IMG/VR virus record: IMGVR_UViG_3300030331_003025
Coordinates: 1 to 34,203 of that record
DNA length: 34,203 nucleotides
Strand: one strand, 5' to 3'
From: a virus
Shown here: positions 7,514 through 33,616 of the stretch, in pieces
How positions within the stretch are numbered: the first letter of the stretch is position 1
How the letters are laid out: each line of letters begins with the position of its first letter
Translations under genes and position numbers: made by a program
Notes under the pieces: generated by a model
What the model saw: only the letters and a program-made list of their open reading frames with translations
What the model was told of the DNA's origin: nothing
The model's database searches: none

Positions 7514-10054
7514 TTATTGTTGTTGTTGTTGTTGTCTTAGAACTCTAGCGTCTGGAAGAGATCTTGTTTGGAATAAAAGTTCTTGAGCTTCTATAAACTC
7601 TGCCGCTGTTAGCTTTTTTCCGCTTGAGTCTACAAGGTTATTCATGTCTATGATTGTTTGAACTTTTTGAATAACTCTATCTATGTTTTTGTTTTGAATT
7701 GAGTCGTAGTCCAAAACAGGAATGACTTGCCATCCGAAACTTTGCCCCATACCGGGCATTGTTTCAGTAGCTACTTTTGAAGATCTTAAAGCGTTTTCTA
7801 AGTCGTACTTATTTCTTTTTATTTCTACGTACCCTTGGGCTGCGTCGTCTTCTTCTATGCCGTACTTTAAAAGCTCCCTCATACTTCTTTGAAGTCTTAT
7901 TCTTTCTCCAACAGATATTCCAGAAGGTTTGTTATCAAACAATTCTCCTCTAGGAGACATAGAATAGAAACCAGGAAGCTGTGGATTTAATGAATCAAGT
8001 ATTGATACTATTTTGTCCGAGTTTTTAACCATGTCTTTATGAAACTTAAAGACAGTGTCTAAGTCTTCTAGCTTTCCCTCAAATAGTCCAAGATTACGAG
8101 TGTTTTGATATTTTTGTTCAAACTGTAAAATGTCTTCTATTTCATAGTTCGCCCCAACGTCTATAAAACCTAAAAGTTTTCCTCTATCAAAATCAAATAT
8201 GCTGTCGTCTTTTTTTATTATAAGATTTCCATTTTCATCAACTTTAAAAGTGTTTTCAGTACGCCGCGCTAAATCACGCCTAGCTCCTATGTTTGCTTGT
8301 TTTTCGTCTAAGGTAGGATCGGCCTCTAGGTACTCTTGAGTAAGCCTTCTGGCTGGAACTTGAGGTTTAGGTTTTATAGTGCTTTGAGATGCTTCTGGAA
8401 GTCCTAGGTCTTTTCTTATAGAATTTACAGTTGGATCAAAAGCTTCTCTTGCTAATCGTTCTGCGGTTACTTGAATAAATTTATTTCTGTCGGCAAGCGT
8501 CGGATTTGGGTTTAGTCTTACGTAGTTATCCGCTTCTTCATAAAGTTCGTTCGCTATAATATTTCCTTCAAATATTCCAATCTGCGTTTTTACTTGATTC
8601 ATTTTAGCTTCCGCAGGATAAAGGGCCATATCAAACGACCCAGAAGCTGTAGGTTTTTCAACATAAAAATCAGTATTGTTTCCGTATTGTTCTATAGGAA
8701 AAGCTTTTCTGTATACTTCGTCTGCGTTTAATATGCTTAGTATATAATTAGCCGCGTCCGCTTTTTGCGAATATTCAAAAGCTTTATCGCTTACTTTAGT
8801 TTCGTAGTCAGAAGAAAAATCTTCTAACAAATCTCTAAAAGCTATCTGCGTCTCGACGGTTCCGCCATACGGTCTTCCTTTTTCAGTCAAGTTGTGAACT
8901 TTAGTTAACTCTTGCATGAAAGAATTTAAATTATCAAAAGTTTGTCCGTTAAACTCAACTATTTCACCTGGATTGTTTGCAAGTATTTCAAGGTTTTTTC
9001 TTATGCCGTCTTCAAGCATTAAATCTTTAACGATGTCTGCTGGTAGGTTTTCGTTGTCTCTTTCAAACTTAGCTTCTGCTGCGTCAACTGTTTTATAGGC
9101 TGCTGCTAAAGCTGCTTGTCCTGCTCGACTTTTAAATGGAAGCTTTTTCCTAGCTACATCAAGAAACAACTTTGCTTTATCAAACCTGTCAGGCATGTCA
9201 GAGTCCGGAAGGTTGACGAAAGGGGCTACAGCTTCTGGAAGAGCTTTATGAATAGCTTGCATTTTTTCTGACGGACTCATGTTAAGACCTACAGCTCTAG
9301 CTTCAAAATTACTAATTATTGAATCTATCTTGTCTTCATAATAAGCTCCAAAGTTTATAGGTTCGTCAGCTCCTTTCAAACCTTGCGTAAGCGGCTCATC
9401 TCCGGCTTGAGTGTCGTTGAGCAAGTTAAACATGTTATTGCCAAGTATCTCTAGCTCTCTTGTGTTAGCCCAGGCGCTTTGTTTCTTTATGTACTTATCT
9501 CTTTCTTGAAGTGAAAATTTAGTCTTAACAGGCTCAAAGGCGGCGTTGTGAACTTGCATCTGAAACGGATTGTCTCCGATGTAACCTAAAGCTTTGTCCT
9601 CAATCTCTTTAACTTTACCAGCGATGAAATCGTCAAAGTCATCAACACCTTTTGCTTCAAACTCGTCTGCGTTTATGTTCGCAAGTTCATTACTAAGATC
9701 ATTGAACATAGGAATGACTTTAGTCTCAAGATAGCGCGAGTAGAGCTGCTGAGAGTATCCTTTTTGAAAACCGATACGTTCAGTTAAAGGAATCTTGTCC
9801 TGTTCCTGCTGCTTCTCAATTGCTGCAATCACCTCGTCGGTGGACATAACAGCTGCTGTATCCTGGCCTCTTTTTATCTGTATGTTGCTATACTGTCCTA
9901 AAATATTACTGAACTGCGCAAGTCCGCGAGACAGTTGCAACATAGAGTTGTCTTGAGGTACTTTAGGCATAACGACAGGTGTCTGTCCGCCGCCTTGAAT
10001 TGTTTCTCTTAGTCTTGGTTCTCCAAAAGGAACGTCTGTTTGTTTTCTTGCCAT
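7514..10054 (-). CDS. Internal virion core protein (T7 gp15-like)
   Basis: This 846-residue, mostly helical and hydrophilic protein lies between gp14-like and gp16-like genes, where T7 has gp15 (747). T7 gp15 forms the middle ring of the internal core and the periplasmic tunnel during ejection. No catalytic motif is visible. The N-terminus is a flexible Gly/Pro/Gln stretch. The last six residues are glutamines encoded by six CAA codons running into two stops (TAATAA), a slippage-prone tract. The gp16-like gene begins five bases after this stop, so translation is probably coupled. Function is inferred from order and length. Confidence 0.82.
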   Translation of the reverse strand: MARKQTDVPFGEPRLRETIQGGGQTPVVMPKVPQDNSMLQLSRGLAQFSNILGQYSNIQIKRGQDTAAVMSTDEVIAAIEKQQEQDKIPLTERIGFQKGYSQQLYSRYLETKVIPMFNDLSNELANINADEFEAKGVDDFDDFIAGKVKEIEDKALGYIGDNPFQMQVHNAAFEPVKTKFSLQERDKYIKKQSAWANTRELEILGNNMFNLLNDTQAGDEPLTQGLKGADEPINFGAYYEDKIDSIISNFEARAVGLNMSPSEKMQAIHKALPEAVAPFVNLPDSDMPDRFDKAKLFLDVARKKLPFKSRAGQAALAAAYKTVDAAEAKFERDNENLPADIVKDLMLEDGIRKNLEILANNPGEIVEFNGQTFDNLNSFMQELTKVHNLTEKGRPYGGTVETQIAFRDLLEDFSSDYETKVSDKAFEYSQKADAANYILSILNADEVYRKAFPIEQYGNNTDFYVEKPTASGSFDMALYPAEAKMNQVKTQIGIFEGNIIANELYEEADNYVRLNPNPTLADRNKFIQVTAERLAREAFDPTVNSIRKDLGLPEASQSTIKPKPQVPARRLTQEYLEADPTLDEKQANIGARRDLARRTENTFKVDENGNLIIKKDDSIFDFDRGKLLGFIDVGANYEIEDILQFEQKYQNTRNLGLFEGKLEDLDTVFKFHKDMVKNSDKIVSILDSLNPQLPGFYSMSPRGELFDNKPSGISVGERIRLQRSMRELLKYGIEEDDAAQGYVEIKRNKYDLENALRSSKVATETMPGMGQSFGWQVIPVLDYDSIQNKNIDRVIQKVQTIIDMNNLVDSSGKKLTAAEFIEAQELLFQTRSLPDARVLRQQQQQQ

Positions 10055-18807: not shown

Positions 18808-21627
18808 TTAGAAAATGTTATGGAAGTCATTTATGTGTTTTTCAATGGAAGTCCTATTGGCTGACTGGTCAGAATCAAAGAAAATCCATTCGGAGAACTT
18901 GGTATTTTCAATGTTTAGACTGTAGTTGGTTATTCCTGCAAAGTGACCCATGTCAACGGCTCCCCAGAATCTTGTACTTGCATTTCTGTGATAAACAAGT
19001 TTCCGTCCTTGGTACGCTGTATGTACGTCATCCCTAGTTGAAGGTGATTGTTGCACTCCATTAATTTCTAGTACAGGAGAACCATATCCACTAACCAGAC
19101 CAGTAGCTGTAGATGAGTCTTCTGCTACAAATGCGTACCTATATCCAACTGTCGGGTCTACAGGATAGCCCAACGCTGCATCGCTCGTTTCTGCTACAAA
19201 GAAAGAATCTAACTTGAGTATATCTTGAAGCCCTTGTACTCTTAAATTCCTCTGAGGATTACTTACTGGATACTCCCAAGCAGGACTACTTCCAGATCTT
19301 ACAAGCAACCCTGCATTATATAATAACGGCTGATGTGCTTGAGTATCTTGAGTAGCATCTTCCCCTCCTGTCTGGTTGTATAGCACGACAATTCCTGCGT
19401 TTCCGTCTCTTGCTGTGCCTGTGGTCTTTTGGTACTTCTTGAGAGAGTCGGTGTTTACTTGATAACCAAACACATAAAAATTATCGCCAGTTGAGCTTGA
19501 AGAGCCTGAGTACAATTGAAACGTATCTGATCCTCCTGCTGGAAATGTATAAGCAAAGCTAACACGATACCAACCATCGGAGCCTACTGCTTCTATAGAA
19601 ACATCAGATGGTGAGCCTACCGCAGTAGAAATAGTGCCATTAGTTAAGTTTGCTTCTACTCGTATCGATGTTGTTCCTTGATCAATGACTCCCAGTTGAA
19701 CGCTGTCTGTTGTTCCTTTTTTTAGAAAGACAGAAATAAAATACTTACCTGCTGTTGTTGTTATGTTGTCTTGAATTTTAGAACCAATCCCATCAGCGTG
19801 GGATGTAAATATATGACTGCCTGTTCCCCCAAACGGGTCAGTTATGTTGCTTTCAACAATCTGTGCTGCTCCACCAAACAAATGAGGATTCCAAGCGTTA
19901 TTGTTAAAATCTTCAGAGTAAGGTATCAAATTCTCACCGCCAACGAAGCTGTCCAAGTCGGATTCTACAAATGTTAGTCCATCGTTACTCACCACTGGGG
20001 TGCTGATGTATTCGGAAGGGATTGGATCGAATTCTTTGATGCTTACGTTGTCTATTGATCCTACAAAAGCTGCTGTTGCTTCAAAATAAGCCGTACCTGT
20101 GTGCAATGCTGTGTAAGTGTATGTATGTGTTCCTACTCCTAATGCAGAAGTGAAAATATTTTGCGCTCCGTTGACCCAGAATTTTATATTTTCTCCATTA
20201 GTCGAAACTACATCAAATGTAAGAGTGTATTTTTTCCCTACAGTATGTACATTATATTGAATCAATCCTGAGTTAGTGCTTTGACTTCCGTCACTTGCAG
20301 CAACGCCATTAGCAATAGACCAACCAGTTCCCTTACTCCAATTTGTGTCAGTATCAAAGTCTCCATTAGTTACCTTCTCAGTTCCAGTGCTTTTGAAAGT
20401 GACTGTTTCCTCAAGCATGGCTCCGAAGATGTAAGTATTTTTGTTTGTAGCGTTTCTGTCGGGATAAAATATTAACGAATGATTAGATGCTGTTGCCGTC
20501 GCTTTGCCTACGAAGCTAAATCGATACCATCCATCATCTCCTATTTTTTCGTAAGATATATTTGTGGCGTTTAAATTACCTGTTGAGCTTGGAACCCCAC
20601 TAGAATCAAAAGTTGTCTCTGCCCAAAATATCCAACCACCTTGGTAAATACCTAGTCTAGTTTTTGTGGACGTGCCTTTTTTAATGTATAAAGAAGCTGT
20701 ATAGTTTGTGCCACTAGTTAACGAAATATTATCATTTTTGATTTGCGCAGCGTTGTTACTTCCTGCTGCTGTGAGTATTCCTGCATTATTTCCTCCAAAG
20801 GGATCAGCTATACCCTTCTGAAGTGTTGGTGTATATGTTGGGTGGTAGTTCCACTCACCAAAGTCCTCACTGTATGCAAGTAAATTCTGTGATGTATTTC
20901 TCACGACCGAAGACTCACTAACTCTATCACTCGCATCAAACATTACCTGTGCCTCGGTGTTGTCCGAGCTTCTTCTAATCCTTGCTGCGTATGGAGAAAC
21001 GTCTCCAAGCTTCCTAAGAGAAAAGGCTGCAACTGGTGCTTGCTTGATAGCTTTTTTAAGTGAAACATTATCAACTGTAAAAGACCAGTCTCCTGTTCCT
21101 GCATGTCTTTCAAATATAATTTCGTCTGAACCTGCTGTAGCTACAAAGGTAAATTCTATCTGCTGATCAGTTCCATCTAATGTCACTACCCCATTACTTA
21201 GTTTAAGCCCACCACTATTCCCAGCGTCATCTCGGCATCGCATGATTTTCCCTGACGTTCCGTTGACTGTAAAAGATACCTGATAAGTAGATCCTGTTTC
21301 GTAAGTAACTGGTTGGAAAGCAAAGACGTATCCTCCACCTGTAACAGTAAGCTTTAATTTACCATTTTCTAGCGACGAACCGCCTCCCGACCAGTCAACT
21401 ATAGTATTTGGAGAACCATCTGTATCACTAAAGTCTCCATTAGTTAACAACTCAGTGTTACTCAAAGTAAGCTTAAACTTCTCAAGAAATAGCTCCTCAA
21501 GTTCTGCACCTGTCAGAGATCTTGTTAGCTTTGCTGTAAGAGGTGTTGTCAATTTAGATGACGGCTTACTAGCGGAAACACTACTGCTACTCGAAGAAGA
21601 AGAAGAGGAAGACGATGAATAACTCAT
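18808..21627 (-). CDS. Large modular adhesin / tail-fibre-like protein
   Basis: A 939-residue protein. After a 13-serine run (4-16) and a charged segment (41-52) come two kinds of beta module in alternation: type A, TNGDFSDTDG...VDNVSLKK (about 58-192) and TNGDFDTDTNW...IDNVSIKEFD (419-534), like CBM4/9 carbohydrate-binding domains; and type B, NLLAYSEDFGEWN (248-408) and NLIPYSEDFNNNAWN (566-728). The end (about 795-939) looks like a LamG/concanavalin domain finishing in EWIFFDSDQSANR. Between modules lie pieces of a further domain (198-232 and 744-772). It probably binds surface glycans. It sits upstream of the portal, far from the gp17-like fibre. Confidence 0.8.
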   Translation of the reverse strand: MSYSSSSSSSSSSSSSVSASKPSSKLTTPLTAKLTRSLTGAELEELFLEKFKLTLSNTELLTNGDFSDTDGSPNTIVDWSGGGSSLENGKLKLTVTGGGYVFAFQPVTYETGSTYQVSFTVNGTSGKIMRCRDDAGNSGGLKLSNGVVTLDGTDQQIEFTFVATAGSDEIIFERHAGTGDWSFTVDNVSLKKAIKQAPVAAFSLRKLGDVSPYAARIRRSSDNTEAQVMFDASDRVSESSVVRNTSQNLLAYSEDFGEWNYHPTYTPTLQKGIADPFGGNNAGILTAAGSNNAAQIKNDNISLTSGTNYTASLYIKKGTSTKTRLGIYQGGWIFWAETTFDSSGVPSSTGNLNATNISYEKIGDDGWYRFSFVGKATATASNHSLIFYPDRNATNKNTYIFGAMLEETVTFKSTGTEKVTNGDFDTDTNWSKGTGWSIANGVAASDGSQSTNSGLIQYNVHTVGKKYTLTFDVVSTNGENIKFWVNGAQNIFTSALGVGTHTYTYTALHTGTAYFEATAAFVGSIDNVSIKEFDPIPSEYISTPVVSNDGLTFVESDLDSFVGGENLIPYSEDFNNNAWNPHLFGGAAQIVESNITDPFGGTGSHIFTSHADGIGSKIQDNITTTAGKYFISVFLKKGTTDSVQLGVIDQGTTSIRVEANLTNGTISTAVGSPSDVSIEAVGSDGWYRVSFAYTFPAGGSDTFQLYSGSSSSTGDNFYVFGYQVNTDSLKKYQKTTGTARDGNAGIVVLYNQTGGEDATQDTQAHQPLLYNAGLLVRSGSSPAWEYPVSNPQRNLRVQGLQDILKLDSFFVAETSDAALGYPVDPTVGYRYAFVAEDSSTATGLVSGYGSPVLEINGVQQSPSTRDDVHTAYQGRKLVYHRNASTRFWGAVDMGHFAGITNYSLNIENTKFSEWIFFDSDQSANRTSIEKHINDFHNIF

Positions 21628-29186: not shown

Positions 29187-29213
29187 GTTTTTCGCTTTTA
29201 CGAAAAGAAAAAC
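29187..29213 (-). other. RNA hairpin at the end of the RNA polymerase gene
   Basis: On the minus strand GTTTTTC (29213-29207) pairs with GAAAAAC (29193-29187), and inside it TTTT pairs with AAAA around CGT. The RNA polymerase stop codon lies within the structure. No T-run follows, so it is not a normal intrinsic terminator. It may be an RNA processing or stability element between the polymerase and SSB, comparable in place to the RNase III sites between T7 early genes. That role is inference. Confidence 0.5.
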
Positions 29214-31645
29214 GGACTGTCCCGTATCAAGGACACATCCGCAGAACCGTATTTGGGCGGCTCTGGAAACTCTATGCCAGGGTTTTGTTTTTTAATCTGG
29301 TCCAACCAGTCACGCAACAAATCAGGCGTGAACATTTTTACAGCTTCATCTCTTATTACCTCGGCTAAGAACTGACAGTTTGGACTGTGAGTTCCATAGC
29401 TGTCGTGTATCATTGAAAAGTCATAAATACCTTTATGCTGCTTTGTGCCTTTGTTAGCAGAAACAACAGTCAAATGAAGCAGCGAAGAGTCCAAACTGTG
29501 AGTTACGTTAGGGGCCACGCCGTTAGCTTGCTTACGTGGACTCAACTGGTCGGTAGTGTTGTTAAATTTTATGTGTATAGCTTCGCCTGAAATCCAAGTG
29601 CTTACTTTGCTGTCTTTTATTTTTTTATAGGATTGTTTTACAACAAAACCTGAAGGTGTTTTCCACCAAAGAGGCTGTCCGTTATTACAAGCGATTTTAG
29701 AAACCTCTTGGAACCAATCCATACATCTCTTTGGCAAATCTAAAACTTCTTCAATGGCGTTCCAAACTTTATCGTTCAAATAATGTACGGCTTTGTAATA
29801 TTCTTTTTGATCAAAAGGTGAGGGGCATTGATCGCCATGAATTTTATCATCAAACCAATCTGCAATGTACTGTCGCGAACTATACTTGCTAAGTCCATAC
29901 GGAAAACACATCACACACTTTTTGGTTGTCGATCTGTTTATTCCATACTCAAGCCAAGTAGAAGCAAAAGGATGGTTGTTTGAAGCGTCTTCGCGCATCC
30001 TAGATTCAGCCCTGACTTTAACAACATCATAAATATCTGCCGGAGTGTTTGTTGAACTTGGAGTGCAATTAGTGGCTACAGTTCCATAGTCGCATCTTGT
30101 GAGAATGGAAAGTATCTGCAAACCGTTGTTGGTTGCGTCCATCATGACCGGGATCTTCGTCTTTAATCGATGCTTTCCTTTTTTAAAGTTTTCATAATAC
30201 TCAGCCCACTCAAACACCCACGCCAAAAAACTAAAAGGTTTGTCAGCATCCAGCCAAAGCGTAAAGGACTTAGGGTCGCTAGCAATTTTTATAGCGTCCT
30301 CACCAAAGTCATAGGACCACTTTATTCTATCTTCGAGGCTAACTTTATCATAACCCCAACAATTAGCTCCGTGGATCGCTAGCCACTTTGCACCTTCAGC
30401 GCTCTTTATTCTTTCCTCTCTGTAAAACTGCATCAGACCGCGGCATAAGTCTGGTCCCTGGGGATTTAGAAATACCGGAGTGTTGTAAACTCTGCCTCTA
30501 AAATCACAATTGCTTGGCAAGAAAAACCTTTCACCTTTAAATTTACTTGCAAGTCTTAAAATCTTGCTAGTCAACATTCTCTTTGATCGTGTTGATAAAT
30601 TTCTTTTATGAATGACCCTTGCAACTTTAGCCCACTTATCTCTAACATGTTTATTTTCTTCTCCGTCTTCTGGAAAAGGAGGTATAGGCATATCGTCTTG
30701 TTCAGGTAATCCTTTTATTGGTACGCCGTTATTCCATGCCCACTCAACAACATCAAAAACTTTTTCGTTGATTTCCCAAGGTGTTCTTTGGATTAGATTT
30801 ACAGCCTCTCTTGGAATCTTCATGTCAGTCGGCTTTATCATTCTTAAAAAAGAACTGTCTGCTGTTTTTATAAACGGAGTTTGCGGAAGGTTTAAAGTTT
30901 CACTTGGCCTGTAACCGCCCACCCAAACATTTTTCCAATCTACAGGTGGATCTAAAGTTGGCATCCAAAAAGGTTCAAGCACTGCGTGGTAACTGTTGAA
31001 ATCTGCAACCCATTGTAAAGTCTCAGGCGTAGCTGATACAAATCTTGTCGGATACTTTCGTCCCTTTTCAGTGAAATAATAATACTCAATCAAACCAGTT
31101 GAAGCACGTAGCAGTTCAACAAAATTCATACCACAACTGACTCTATCTTTACGTGACCAGTCCTCGAATTCCGGCATGCCTTTTTTCTTTGCCTCATTAC
31201 GCATCGACAGTTGGATGTGTCGCATCTGAGAACTTGTAACGCGACGCTTGGCTCCCAAAATAATTCCTTTTCCTTTTTCAGGATTTGTGTCTACTAAAAA
31301 CTGACACTTGACCTCATGCTCAATCATCCGGCCAACCCAATAACTTGTAGCAGCCATAGTCTTCTTAAAAGCGATAGAGTCCATGATGACTTTGATTGCA
31401 ACAAAGGCTAACACCTTGGGATCAAAACGCTGTAGGTCTTCTTTCCACCGCGTCGGTCTGCCTTTTGATCTTTCAAGCAACGTTGCTACTTGTTTTGTGT
31501 ATTCAGGAAGTAAATCTCTGAGGAGTCTTTGCCCGGCTTTTGAACGCGATATCTTTTCGCTTTCTTTTGCTTTGTTCCACTGAGAGTTAAATCGACCTAT
31601 GCCAATTTCAACCATCTCTCTGTTTAAGTCGTCCTGATCTAACAT
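29198..31645 (-). CDS. Single-subunit DNA-directed RNA polymerase (T7 gp1-like)
   Basis: An 815-residue phage RNA polymerase that would transcribe the middle and late genes from its own promoters. Catalytic residues align with T7: Asp503 in MMDATNNGLQ (T7 D537), Lys575 and Tyr583 in KKCVMCFPYG (K631, Y639), and Asp748 in MIHDSYGTH (D812). CDFRGRVYNTP (380-390) matches the DWRGRVY block. T7 gp1 has 883 residues; the shortening is mainly N-terminal. Its promoter specificity loop would be around 660-705. It lies directly behind the attP region, and no good ribosome site precedes the ATG. Confidence 0.97.
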   Translation of the reverse strand: MLDQDDLNREMVEIGIGRFNSQWNKAKESEKISRSKAGQRLLRDLLPEYTKQVATLLERSKGRPTRWKEDLQRFDPKVLAFVAIKVIMDSIAFKKTMAATSYWVGRMIEHEVKCQFLVDTNPEKGKGIILGAKRRVTSSQMRHIQLSMRNEAKKKGMPEFEDWSRKDRVSCGMNFVELLRASTGLIEYYYFTEKGRKYPTRFVSATPETLQWVADFNSYHAVLEPFWMPTLDPPVDWKNVWVGGYRPSETLNLPQTPFIKTADSSFLRMIKPTDMKIPREAVNLIQRTPWEINEKVFDVVEWAWNNGVPIKGLPEQDDMPIPPFPEDGEENKHVRDKWAKVARVIHKRNLSTRSKRMLTSKILRLASKFKGERFFLPSNCDFRGRVYNTPVFLNPQGPDLCRGLMQFYREERIKSAEGAKWLAIHGANCWGYDKVSLEDRIKWSYDFGEDAIKIASDPKSFTLWLDADKPFSFLAWVFEWAEYYENFKKGKHRLKTKIPVMMDATNNGLQILSILTRCDYGTVATNCTPSSTNTPADIYDVVKVRAESRMREDASNNHPFASTWLEYGINRSTTKKCVMCFPYGLSKYSSRQYIADWFDDKIHGDQCPSPFDQKEYYKAVHYLNDKVWNAIEEVLDLPKRCMDWFQEVSKIACNNGQPLWWKTPSGFVVKQSYKKIKDSKVSTWISGEAIHIKFNNTTDQLSPRKQANGVAPNVTHSLDSSLLHLTVVSANKGTKQHKGIYDFSMIHDSYGTHSPNCQFLAEVIRDEAVKMFTPDLLRDWLDQIKKQNPGIEFPEPPKYGSADVSLIRDSPFFFS

Positions 31646-31841
31646 GTTGATAAATTATGTCAGCGTTTTGTCACCTCCAAGAAGTTTTCGCAGAACAGTA
31701 TTTTGGTATTTGACTGGTGACAAAGCTTTGAAGGACAACGGTTATAGAATAATCGATAAGAACCCCCAGTACCTAAATCTGGCGCGTCTACCAGTTCCGC
31801 CACAGCCGCACAAAGCTTAAAACCTATACTGGACATACGTT
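31646..31841 (-). other. Phage attachment region (attP) between int and RNA polymerase
   Basis: A 196-bp non-coding interval holding a partial tRNA-Leu gene as core and copies of a TTTGTCAC motif: plus strand 31666-31676, minus strand 31724-31716, with two more on the plus strand just inside int (31900-31908 and 31910-31920). Such repeats on both sides of a tRNA core are what integrase arm-type sites look like. AAGCTTTG occurs on both sides of the core too. A weak host-type promoter may exist near 31722-31695 (TTGTCA, 17-base gap, TACTGT) ahead of the polymerase, but it is not convincing. Confidence 0.7.
31766..31809 (-). other. Partial tRNA-Leu(UAG) sequence, attP core
   Basis: Read on the minus strand, the 44 bases are the 5' half of a leucine tRNA: acceptor strand GCGGCTG, TG, D-arm GCGGAACTGGTAGACGC, anticodon strand CCAGA, loop TTTAGGT (anticodon UAG) and ACTGG. 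The variable arm, T-arm and the complementary acceptor strand CAGCCGC are missing, so it is no functional tRNA. Cyanophage P-SSP7 has a 42-bp piece of a tRNA-Leu gene at the same place beside int. This is the expected crossover region with the host chromosome. Confidence 0.85.
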
Positions 31842-32954
31842 TCAAGCTATTTTGTTGTTCTCCTTTTTAGACTTTAAATTGTCCCTAAATTGGGACACAT
31901 TTGTCACTGTTTTGTCACTTAACTCCAGACCCCTGTCTAAAGCGCATAAAGCTTGTCGAAGGTTGCTTGGAGATAGCTTTGCGTAACGCATAGATTGCTC
32001 TAGCGATTTATGACCCAACATCTCCTTTACAAGATAGATGGACCCGGTCGCTTCAACAATCCTTGAGCCACAAGTATGCCGAGTCAAATAAAAGACAAAA
32101 TCCTTGTCACGCGTTCTTCCCATGTGTTTTCTGACCTTATCCCACACCGTTCTAATTCGCTCTTTCGTCCAATAATCCCAAAGTTTATCTCTATGAGCTT
32201 GGTTTTTATAAGAGACAATTGCTCGTCTTGTCAATGGAATCGTTCTATTTACTTTTGACTTTGTGTTCTCTGCATACAAATCAACAACCAATCCAAGATT
32301 GTCATCTGTCCTTACATGTTCAGGTCTTATAGATCTTGATTCCCCAGGACGGCAACCAGTATCCATTTGCCAGCAAAAAAAGTCATAAAAATAATCTTCG
32401 CCTGACGCTTCAAGAAATTCCAGTATCTCTGCTTCCTCCTCACGGGAAAAGAAAACATACCTTTCATTATCAACTTTAATTTTTGGAAAGGTCGGCTTTG
32501 ATTGAATGTATCCGGCCTTCAAAACTTCAGTCATGGCCGTTGAGAGTGTAGCAAATTTAAGCTTGCGTGTTGCATCACTGTTACCAGCTTGTTTTAAATG
32601 CAGATTTAAAGCGTTTAATTCAACAAGATCAATGTCCTTTACTTTCATCTTAGAACCAAAATACTCACAGATCATTTTAGAATGGCTGAAGGCATTGTCA
32701 TAGTTTGCTTTACCTTTCCAGTGAGTATCCAAAACTAAATCAAACATCTCCTGTAAGTTAATCTCTGATTTTAGTTTCTGTTTTTGTTCGCTCGTCTTCG
32801 TAAACTTATCGATTGACCACCCAGCTTCAAGATGCCTTTTAAAATCTAACTCTTCTGCTTGTGCGTCTTTTTTATCAGTAAAGCTTTTTCTGTAACGCTT
32901 GCCAGCATACATAAAGTCATACTGCCATTTTTTTCCTTTAGGTCTTATTGACAT
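31842..32954 (-). CDS. int: Tyrosine integrase
   Basis: A 370-residue tyrosine recombinase. An N-terminal AT-hook-like/arm-binding part (1-60, with KKWQYDFMYAGKRYRKSF) is followed by a SAM-like core-binding domain (65-160) and the catalytic domain. Visible active-site residues: Arg202 in DTGCRPGESRS, Lys232/Lys234 in NTKSKVNRTIPL, Arg292 in YLTRHTCGSR, His315 in MLGHKSLEQS and the nucleophile Tyr324 in MRYAKLS. The usual His of the HxxR box is Tyr289. It should recombine attP, directly downstream, with a host tRNA-Leu gene. Its own 3' end carries two of the likely arm-type repeats. The ATG follows GGGTAAAAG. Confidence 0.95.
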   Translation of the reverse strand: MSIRPKGKKWQYDFMYAGKRYRKSFTDKKDAQAEELDFKRHLEAGWSIDKFTKTSEQKQKLKSEINLQEMFDLVLDTHWKGKANYDNAFSHSKMICEYFGSKMKVKDIDLVELNALNLHLKQAGNSDATRKLKFATLSTAMTEVLKAGYIQSKPTFPKIKVDNERYVFFSREEEAEILEFLEASGEDYFYDFFCWQMDTGCRPGESRSIRPEHVRTDDNLGLVVDLYAENTKSKVNRTIPLTRRAIVSYKNQAHRDKLWDYWTKERIRTVWDKVRKHMGRTRDKDFVFYLTRHTCGSRIVEATGSIYLVKEMLGHKSLEQSMRYAKLSPSNLRQALCALDRGLELSDKTVTNVSQFRDNLKSKKENNKIA

Positions 32955-33247: not shown

Positions 33248-33616
33248 TTAAAGCGCAATATCGTTGTAAAGCTTTTCCATATAGGGAACCAACCGGATGT
33301 CGTATTGGTCTTCTTCCAACATCTTGTCAAATTTATCTAAAATCTGGTTTACAGCTGAAGCACTCATGCCAAAAGCTTTACCAGCTGACTCTTGGGTCCA
33401 TTCCATCTTTTGTACCAGTATATAAACGCCAAGGCGCCTCCACCATGAGCAGTCGCGCGTGTTGCAATTGTAAAGCTGATCTTTTGAATAGCCTGACATC
33501 TCCGTTAACGATTGTATACAACGGTCCATCAATAAATTCCTATTCACAAAGTTTGGAATGTCAGTTTTATGTTTACGATAAGGTCTTCTTTTTTTCTTTT
33601 TTATTTCTGTTTTCAT
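33248..33616 (-). CDS. DnaA domain IV-like helix-turn-helix protein
   Basis: A 122-residue basic protein. After a Lys/Arg head (KKKKRRPYRKHK), residues 30-100 look like the DNA-binding domain IV of DnaA or the Trp-repressor fold: a helix (MDRCIQSLTEMSG), Y-KDQLYNC, an Arg pair in SWWRRLGVYILVQKM, then helix-turn-helix WTQESAGKAFGMSASAVNQIL (73-93). DnaA has R--A-YL--------IG--FG--D--TV in this place. No ATPase part exists. It could be the regulator of the int promoter or an origin-binding factor. Start ATG overlaps the previous stop (ATGA). Function is inferred. Confidence 0.65.
   Translation of the reverse strand: MKTEIKKKKRRPYRKHKTDIPNFVNRNLLMDRCIQSLTEMSGYSKDQLYNCNTRDCSWWRRLGVYILVQKMEWTQESAGKAFGMSASAVNQILDKFDKMLEEDQYDIRLVPYMEKLYNDIAL

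Follow-up and report, generated by a model that had tools for sequence, protein, structure and literature searches.

The window, by which we mean the whole stretch of DNA analysed here, is a 34,203-bp virus record with a T7-like gene order on the minus strand: terminase and virion proteins are followed by a DNA polymerase, a primase/helicase, a single-subunit RNA polymerase (RNAP) and an integrase (int). The RNAP, integrase, endonuclease and capsid are those verified against the family libraries Pfam and PHROG. The record is the free (attP) form of a T7-like phage in which int adjoins the single-subunit RNAP gene, and is not a prophage. Between the two genes lies the 5′ half of a tRNA-Leu(UAG), flanked by copies of a short repeat (Table 1). 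Upstream of int, near the position held by a MarR-type regulator in relatives, a 122-aa protein (33248-33616, minus strand) had no match in Pfam or PHROG; its sequence suggests a helix-turn-helix. Elsewhere on the minus strand, long single-residue runs are seen at protein ends (18808-21627 and 7514-10054), in the form of a poly-Ser start (MSYSSSSSSSSSSSSS) and a poly-Gln tail, and these are possible slippage tracts.

Table 1. Features of the int–RNAP region of the window.
Feature	Position	Strand	Evidence or remark
int, tyrosine integrase, 370 aa	31842..32954	-	PF00589 1.5e-16, phrog_1 1.6e-51
GTGACAAA, second candidate arm-type Int site within int 3′ end	31911..31918	-	
GTGACAAA, candidate arm-type Int site within int 3′ end	31900..31907	-	
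Gap from int stop to tRNA nt 1, 32 nt	31810..31841	-	29-32 nt across relatives
attP core, tRNA-Leu(UAG) nt 1-39, spanning acceptor strand, D-arm and the 5′ strand plus loop of the anticodon arm	31771..31809	-	exact match to 8 host genes
TTTAGGT, anticodon loop; predicted 7-bp overlap (strand-exchange) region	31771..31777	-	inferred
ACTGG, one mismatch to host TCTGG, then anticodon-stem 3′ strand	31766..31770	-	sequence comparison
GTGACAAA, candidate arm-type site, RNAP side; region conserved in relatives	31717..31724	+	
GTGACAAA, candidate arm-type site, RNAP side	31667..31674	-	
T7-like single-subunit RNA polymerase, 815 aa; first phage gene after core	29198..31645	-	phrog_414 6.8e-215, PF00940

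Read from 31809 to 31766 on the minus strand, the segment behind int is GCGGCTGTGGCGGAACTGGTAGACGCGCCAGATTTAGGTACTGG. An earlier note on this DNA had taken all 44 of these bases as an attP core consisting of the 5′ half of tRNA-Leu(UAG), and had placed it in the same direction as int and the RNAP gene. Both the identity and the direction were borne out: the half lies on the minus strand 32 nt behind int, with the RNAP gene after it and all three in one direction, and the stretch from 31809 to 31771 equals nt 1-39 of tRNA-Leu(UAG), without a mismatch, in 8 genomes out of 84,980 species scanned. These eight are marine Rhizobiaceae-group MAGs or Ahrensia sp. R2A130, with no others among them, and an exact identity over 39 nt cannot be due to chance. 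The proposed length needs correction. At base 40 of the tRNA the phage has A and 8/8 hosts have T, while the following CTGG matches again, so the exact core is 39 nt rather than 44, and a search for the core in host tRNA-Leu(UAG) genes accordingly recovers those 39 nt but not all 44 bases. Since all eight matching genomes belong to the Rhizobiaceae group, a marine Rhizobiales host is a reasonable guess, drawn solely from the tRNA match.

CTGG forms an inverted repeat with CCAG, as expected for core-type Int sites, and strand exchange is predicted to occur in the anticodon loop between the two, on the basis of classic anticodon-loop sites (PMC8371274) and of the point at which host identity ends. 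Joined to a host 3′ half, the phage half gives the host tRNA letter for letter. Searches with Rfam and ARAGORN found no complete tRNA in the window, and a 42,420-bp close relative of the phage contains no complete cognate tRNA. The attP has no tRNA 3′ part, and is thus not of the standard kind of tRNA-gene integration site that keeps the host promoter. Most integrases do use the 3′ end of a tRNA, as the earlier note had stated (Islander counts 3760 islands with a 3′ fragment and 159 with a 5′ fragment; PMC4383910), but its view of the core position as exceptional did not hold, a 5′ half being usual for T7-like cyanophages (PMC8776855) and, in the present comparison, for several pelagiphage groups. 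The core strand was rejected as a self-standing structure, as it folds no better than shuffles. Behind the core, GGGGGTTC resembles a tRNA T-arm; most relatives lack it, so the likeness is probably due to chance.

The 34-kb window contains just four copies of the 8-mer GTGACAAA, all of them within 31667-31918, a 252-bp region around the core. Two copies sit inside int near its 3′ end, and the other two lie between the tRNA half and RNAP. With these candidate arm-type sites, the locus appears to have the layout of a lambda-type attP, in which a repeated arm motif is found on either side of the core. Repeats of GTGACAA are likewise seen at both ends of a related prophage, that of genome G529.

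Within the integrase group of the window, the half is found at the same position in 13/13 relatives, including one (L185) with an altered anticodon loop. In 14 group members the conserved block begins exactly at tRNA nt 1, and the bases just upstream vary. The D-stem differs from phage to phage (GCG/CGC, GTG/CAC, ACG/CGT, GAG/CTC) with pairing kept in every case; two of its three pairs vary on both sides, and slid controls lose the covariation. The sample for this comparison is small, with 6 distinct halves that were possibly copied from different hosts, and pairing is preserved either way. Taken together, the D-stem covariation and the start of the block at nt 1 argue from the alignments that the half is maintained as part of a tRNA, beyond its use as a recombination core. 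The int–RNAP region of L185 itself carries a half with a damaged anticodon loop, GATTATGTT in place of GATTTAGGT, and its attP is possibly dead or shifted. A small minus-strand ORF (31660-31845) that starts where int ends and spans the tRNA half is open in 13/14 relatives. It was rejected as a coding sequence and is probably spurious: nearly all differences between the window and relative L181 change a residue, and relative L006 breaks the frame.

Prophage relatives were found by searching genomes with integrase alignments. No lysogen of the window phage or its close relatives was obtained from 385 genomes of the class of Ahrensia and 297 of its order, which gave only more distant integrases. 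In genome G529, a host 5′ fragment of tRNA-Leu(UAA) stands at 32750, and an open RNAP frame follows. Over 41 nt the fragment shows no difference from the tRNA gene found in four relatives of the same genus. About 9.9 kb beyond this fragment we find int and then an intact tRNA-Leu(UAA), with 435 bp of other sequence separating the two. The 5′ half of the intact gene differs from the host version at three bases and can be read as the phage copy. The anticodon-arm pattern of tRNA-Leu(UAA) has only two matches in the genome, namely the host fragment and the int-side tRNA. The 9.9-kb element as a whole (G529:C1:32750-42776; L062, L063) encodes an open T7-like RNAP of 841 codons, an endonuclease, a helicase and int; the DNA polymerase and virion genes of the window have no match there, and the element is either a decayed prophage or satellite-like.

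A second genome, G324, contains a 40-kb T7-like prophage in which 11/13 tested window proteins have a match. Here the host tRNA-Leu(CAA) is split, with the host promoter and 5′ half lying upstream of RNAP, while at the other end 39 bp separate int from a complete tRNA-Leu(CAA) supplied by the phage, beyond which lies the host 3′ half. The empty site is seen in three relatives, with both host flanks joined around one tRNA gene. There is no second tRNA-Leu(CAA) in the G324 genome, so that the sole intact copy is phage-borne, and the integration core is only 10-15 bp. In G415 (C1:579587-580816), a non-T7 element with a related integrase carries a complete tRNA-Leu(UAA) downstream of int, and the 3′ half of the host gene comes next. 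No further tRNA-Leu(UAA) copy is present in that genome; because this element does likewise, tRNA replacement extends beyond T7-like phages. In G598 an intact tRNA-Leu(UAG) comes after int, and the opposite end was not found. The arrangement put forward in the earlier note, with the host promoter and a broken 5′ fragment ahead of RNAP and the sole intact cognate tRNA downstream of int, is therefore what is present in G529 and G324. Its promoter swap stands as a geometry in the window and as an outcome in these two relatives, but not in a lysogen of the window phage, none having been found.

Comparison across temperate T7-like phages reveals a rule: a phage has either a long 5′ half (of tRNA-Leu, -Cys, -Phe or -Arg) without any complete tRNA, or a core of 10-15 bp from the anticodon arm together with a complete cognate tRNA. 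All 57 of the 57 classified phages conform. Long halves are carried by the window group (Leu UAG), HTVC109P and its relatives (Leu UAA), P-SSP7 (Leu), the HTVC120P group (tRNA-Arg), 33 pelagiphage contigs (Cys) and four contigs whose half reads as tRNA-Phe. The available sequence of these carriers, which includes 11 records of 36-43 kb, contains no complete tRNA, and neither do the isolate genomes of HTVC109P, HTVC120P and P-SSP7. The 10-15-bp cores are those of HTVC119P, HTVC200P and S28C10 with their contigs, LUZ100, RHEph01/21, HTVC019P and its relatives, G684, L193 and G324, and a complete tRNA matching the phage's own core is found in all of them wherever the sequence extends far enough. 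Within the tRNA-Cys integrase family, considering members with enough flanking sequence, a complete tRNA is seen in 0/21 half-carriers versus 13/13 short-core phages. On the integrase tree of the 57 phages there are 6 switches of state, at least 4 of them on well-supported branches, and both traits always change together. Applied to 4 independent pairs, a sign test reaches only p = 0.125; what carries the rule is therefore its freedom from exceptions and not this statistic. The count leaves aside CRP-171, CRP-804, BB8, Pasto, S45C18, Lo5R7ANS and some contigs, in which a tRNA-derived attP near int was not recognised. Desulfovibrio phage ProddE has an ordinary tRNA 3′ part, the sole such case among the T7-like phages surveyed.

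We consider it very probable that the locus is the lambda-style attP of a temperate T7-like phage, with crossover in the anticodon loop and an intact tRNA rebuilt on the int side and transcribed from phage DNA. Int would bind the GTGACAAA arm sites on either side of the core, and strand exchange would take place at the anticodon loop of the tRNA-Leu(UAG) gene in the host. Since tRNA nt 1-39 are part of attP, the product next to int would be an intact gene in which a phage 5′ half is joined to a host 3′ half, while the host promoter and host 5′ half would end up ahead of the phage RNAP gene. In the lysogen, the intact copy at the integration site would then be transcribed from phage DNA. The attP anatomy is seen in the window, and the predicted junctions and the sole-copy state are seen in its relatives; from these we infer that the window phage integrates, what its host would be and what would transcribe the rebuilt tRNA.

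The half might instead be a recombination core only, under no selection for tRNA function and with integrated states that are transient. Two observations would fit: T7-like cyanophages of the same layout integrate yet gave no stable lysogens (PMC8776855), and L185 has its damaged anticodon loop. However, an anticodon arm suffices as a core, and related phages such as that of G324 integrate with 10-15 bp, whereas conservation of the half extends to tRNA nt 1 and its D-stem covaries. Complete cognate tRNAs are found in short-core phages and not in half-carriers, and G324 and G529 represent established prophages with the sole cognate tRNA on the phage side. We therefore see a pure core as improbable. 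The chances are slimmer still that the half merely dates from an imprecise excision out of a tRNA gene of the host and has no present function. An origin of this type has been proposed for the complete int-adjacent tRNA-Leu of LUZ100, explained as a possible relic, and in pelagiphages (PMC10134795), but it sits poorly with a half that occupies the same place in 14 divergent phages with paired D-stem changes, that is flanked by candidate arm sites, and that stands in a strict either/or relation with complete tRNAs.

Sigma-70 scoring upstream of the half gave no signal in the window (p=0.63), nor did it for 7 host tRNA-Leu upstream controls (p 0.1-0.84), and the score thus has no power to tell whether a promoter is present. 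A second scan for promoters and terminators gave nothing exceeding shuffles, with no terminator between core and RNAP; two Rhizobium phages have a terminator-like hairpin between these elements. A dedicated tRNA promoter in the window, if any, would have to lie within 31810..31841 or the end of int. As a refinement of the preferred reading rather than an alternative to it, the tRNA in the lysogen could be made by read-through from int, which would tie its supply to int expression. This we regard as a tentative possibility, to which we give somewhat less than even weight. The steady gap of 29-32 nt behind int in the window group is consistent with it, as are the 39-bp gap between int and tRNA in G324 and the reported placement of the tRNA under the integrase promoter by archaeal pTN3-like integrases (PMC8371274). 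In the tRNA-Cys group, however, the half is antisense to int, which makes read-through impossible and means that a separate phage promoter is needed; the 435 bp between int and tRNA in G529 also argue against it, and in LUZ100 the transcripts of the int operon mostly end just behind int (PMC10134795). The stronger claim of the earlier note, that the host tRNA depends on int transcription, is unsupported in view of these tRNA-Cys pelagiphages.

The window attP is itself a known type of site and is not new. The attP sites of T7-like cyanophages match the first half of tRNA-Leu, and S-TIP37 and P-SSP7 integrate into tRNA-Leu, with int and attP both required in S-TIP37 (PMC8776855). These two T7-like phages have a core of ~39-42 bp directly downstream of int, with RNAP next, as in the window. 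Unlike the window phage, they have another host and another integrase, and the tRNA half and its promoter consequence are not discussed in the accessible text of that account. The temperate pelagiphages HTVC109P, HTVC120P, HTVC019P and HTVC119P share the int–attP–RNAP order, and the window integrase is ~30% identical to theirs. HTVC109P and HTVC120P resemble the window in having a 5′ half, of tRNA-Leu(UAA) or tRNA-Arg, whereas in HTVC019P and HTVC119P the core is short and is accompanied by a complete tRNA-Cys or tRNA-Leu.

A similar consequence is known from the tRNA-dependent lysogeny of actinobacteriophages such as Fionnbharth (PMC10865867), in which attB lies over the anticodon and the host is left dependent on phage DNA for an essential tRNA. 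In that system the core is ~10 bp, the host tRNA is not rebuilt and the phage supplies a complete tRNA, whereas the window has no complete cognate tRNA and its 39-nt half rebuilds the host gene exactly. The T7-like counterparts of Fionnbharth are G324, G684 and the HTVC019P-, HTVC119P-, LUZ100- and RHEph-like phages. For pTN3-like archaeal integrases, attB is also a tRNA 5′ half, and expression of the recombined tRNA comes from the side of the integrase. Such placement of a tRNA behind the integrase promoter is described as rare in bacteria (PMC8371274). The archaeal integrase gene is split upon integration, while int of the window stays whole. Among Islander islands, those with a displaced 5′ fragment (159 of 3919; PMC4383910) likewise have this fragment upstream and an intact tRNA at the far side. 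They form a rare general class, but in the phage group of the window the arrangement is the rule.

Across these phages, we think it likely that temperate T7-like phages seize the transcription of an essential host tRNA by two interchangeable means, between which there have been 4-6 switches, and that the complete tRNAs next to int are required for lysogeny. As part of this reading, the combination of a short core with a complete tRNA would be tRNA-dependent lysogeny outside Actinobacteria, and hosts including SAR11 would depend on prophage DNA. The either/or rule was not found described in the searchable literature, and we provisionally regard it as new. The same literature gave no description of complete T7-like prophages whose sole cognate tRNA is phage-borne, nor of the HTVC019P-, HTVC119P-, RHEph- and LUZ100-like tRNAs as counterparts of the attP on the same phage.

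T7-like phages abound in the sea, and many authors call them lytic. Accounts of integration into tRNA genes mostly treat it as harmless, on the grounds that the host retains its promoter. If T7-like lysogens do depend on phage DNA for an essential tRNA, loss of the segment would kill the host except when excision of the prophage is precise, and this would help the retention of prophages and their remnants. In LUZ100-like phages and pelagiphages, the genes for tRNA-Leu and tRNA-Cys would then have a testable job, in lysogeny at the normal site and not in lytic growth. A further gene of this type was seen in RHEph21 (L225; MW980070.1), where a complete tRNA-Leu(UAG) adjoins int at 1487-1571 on the minus strand and is unannotated in the public record.
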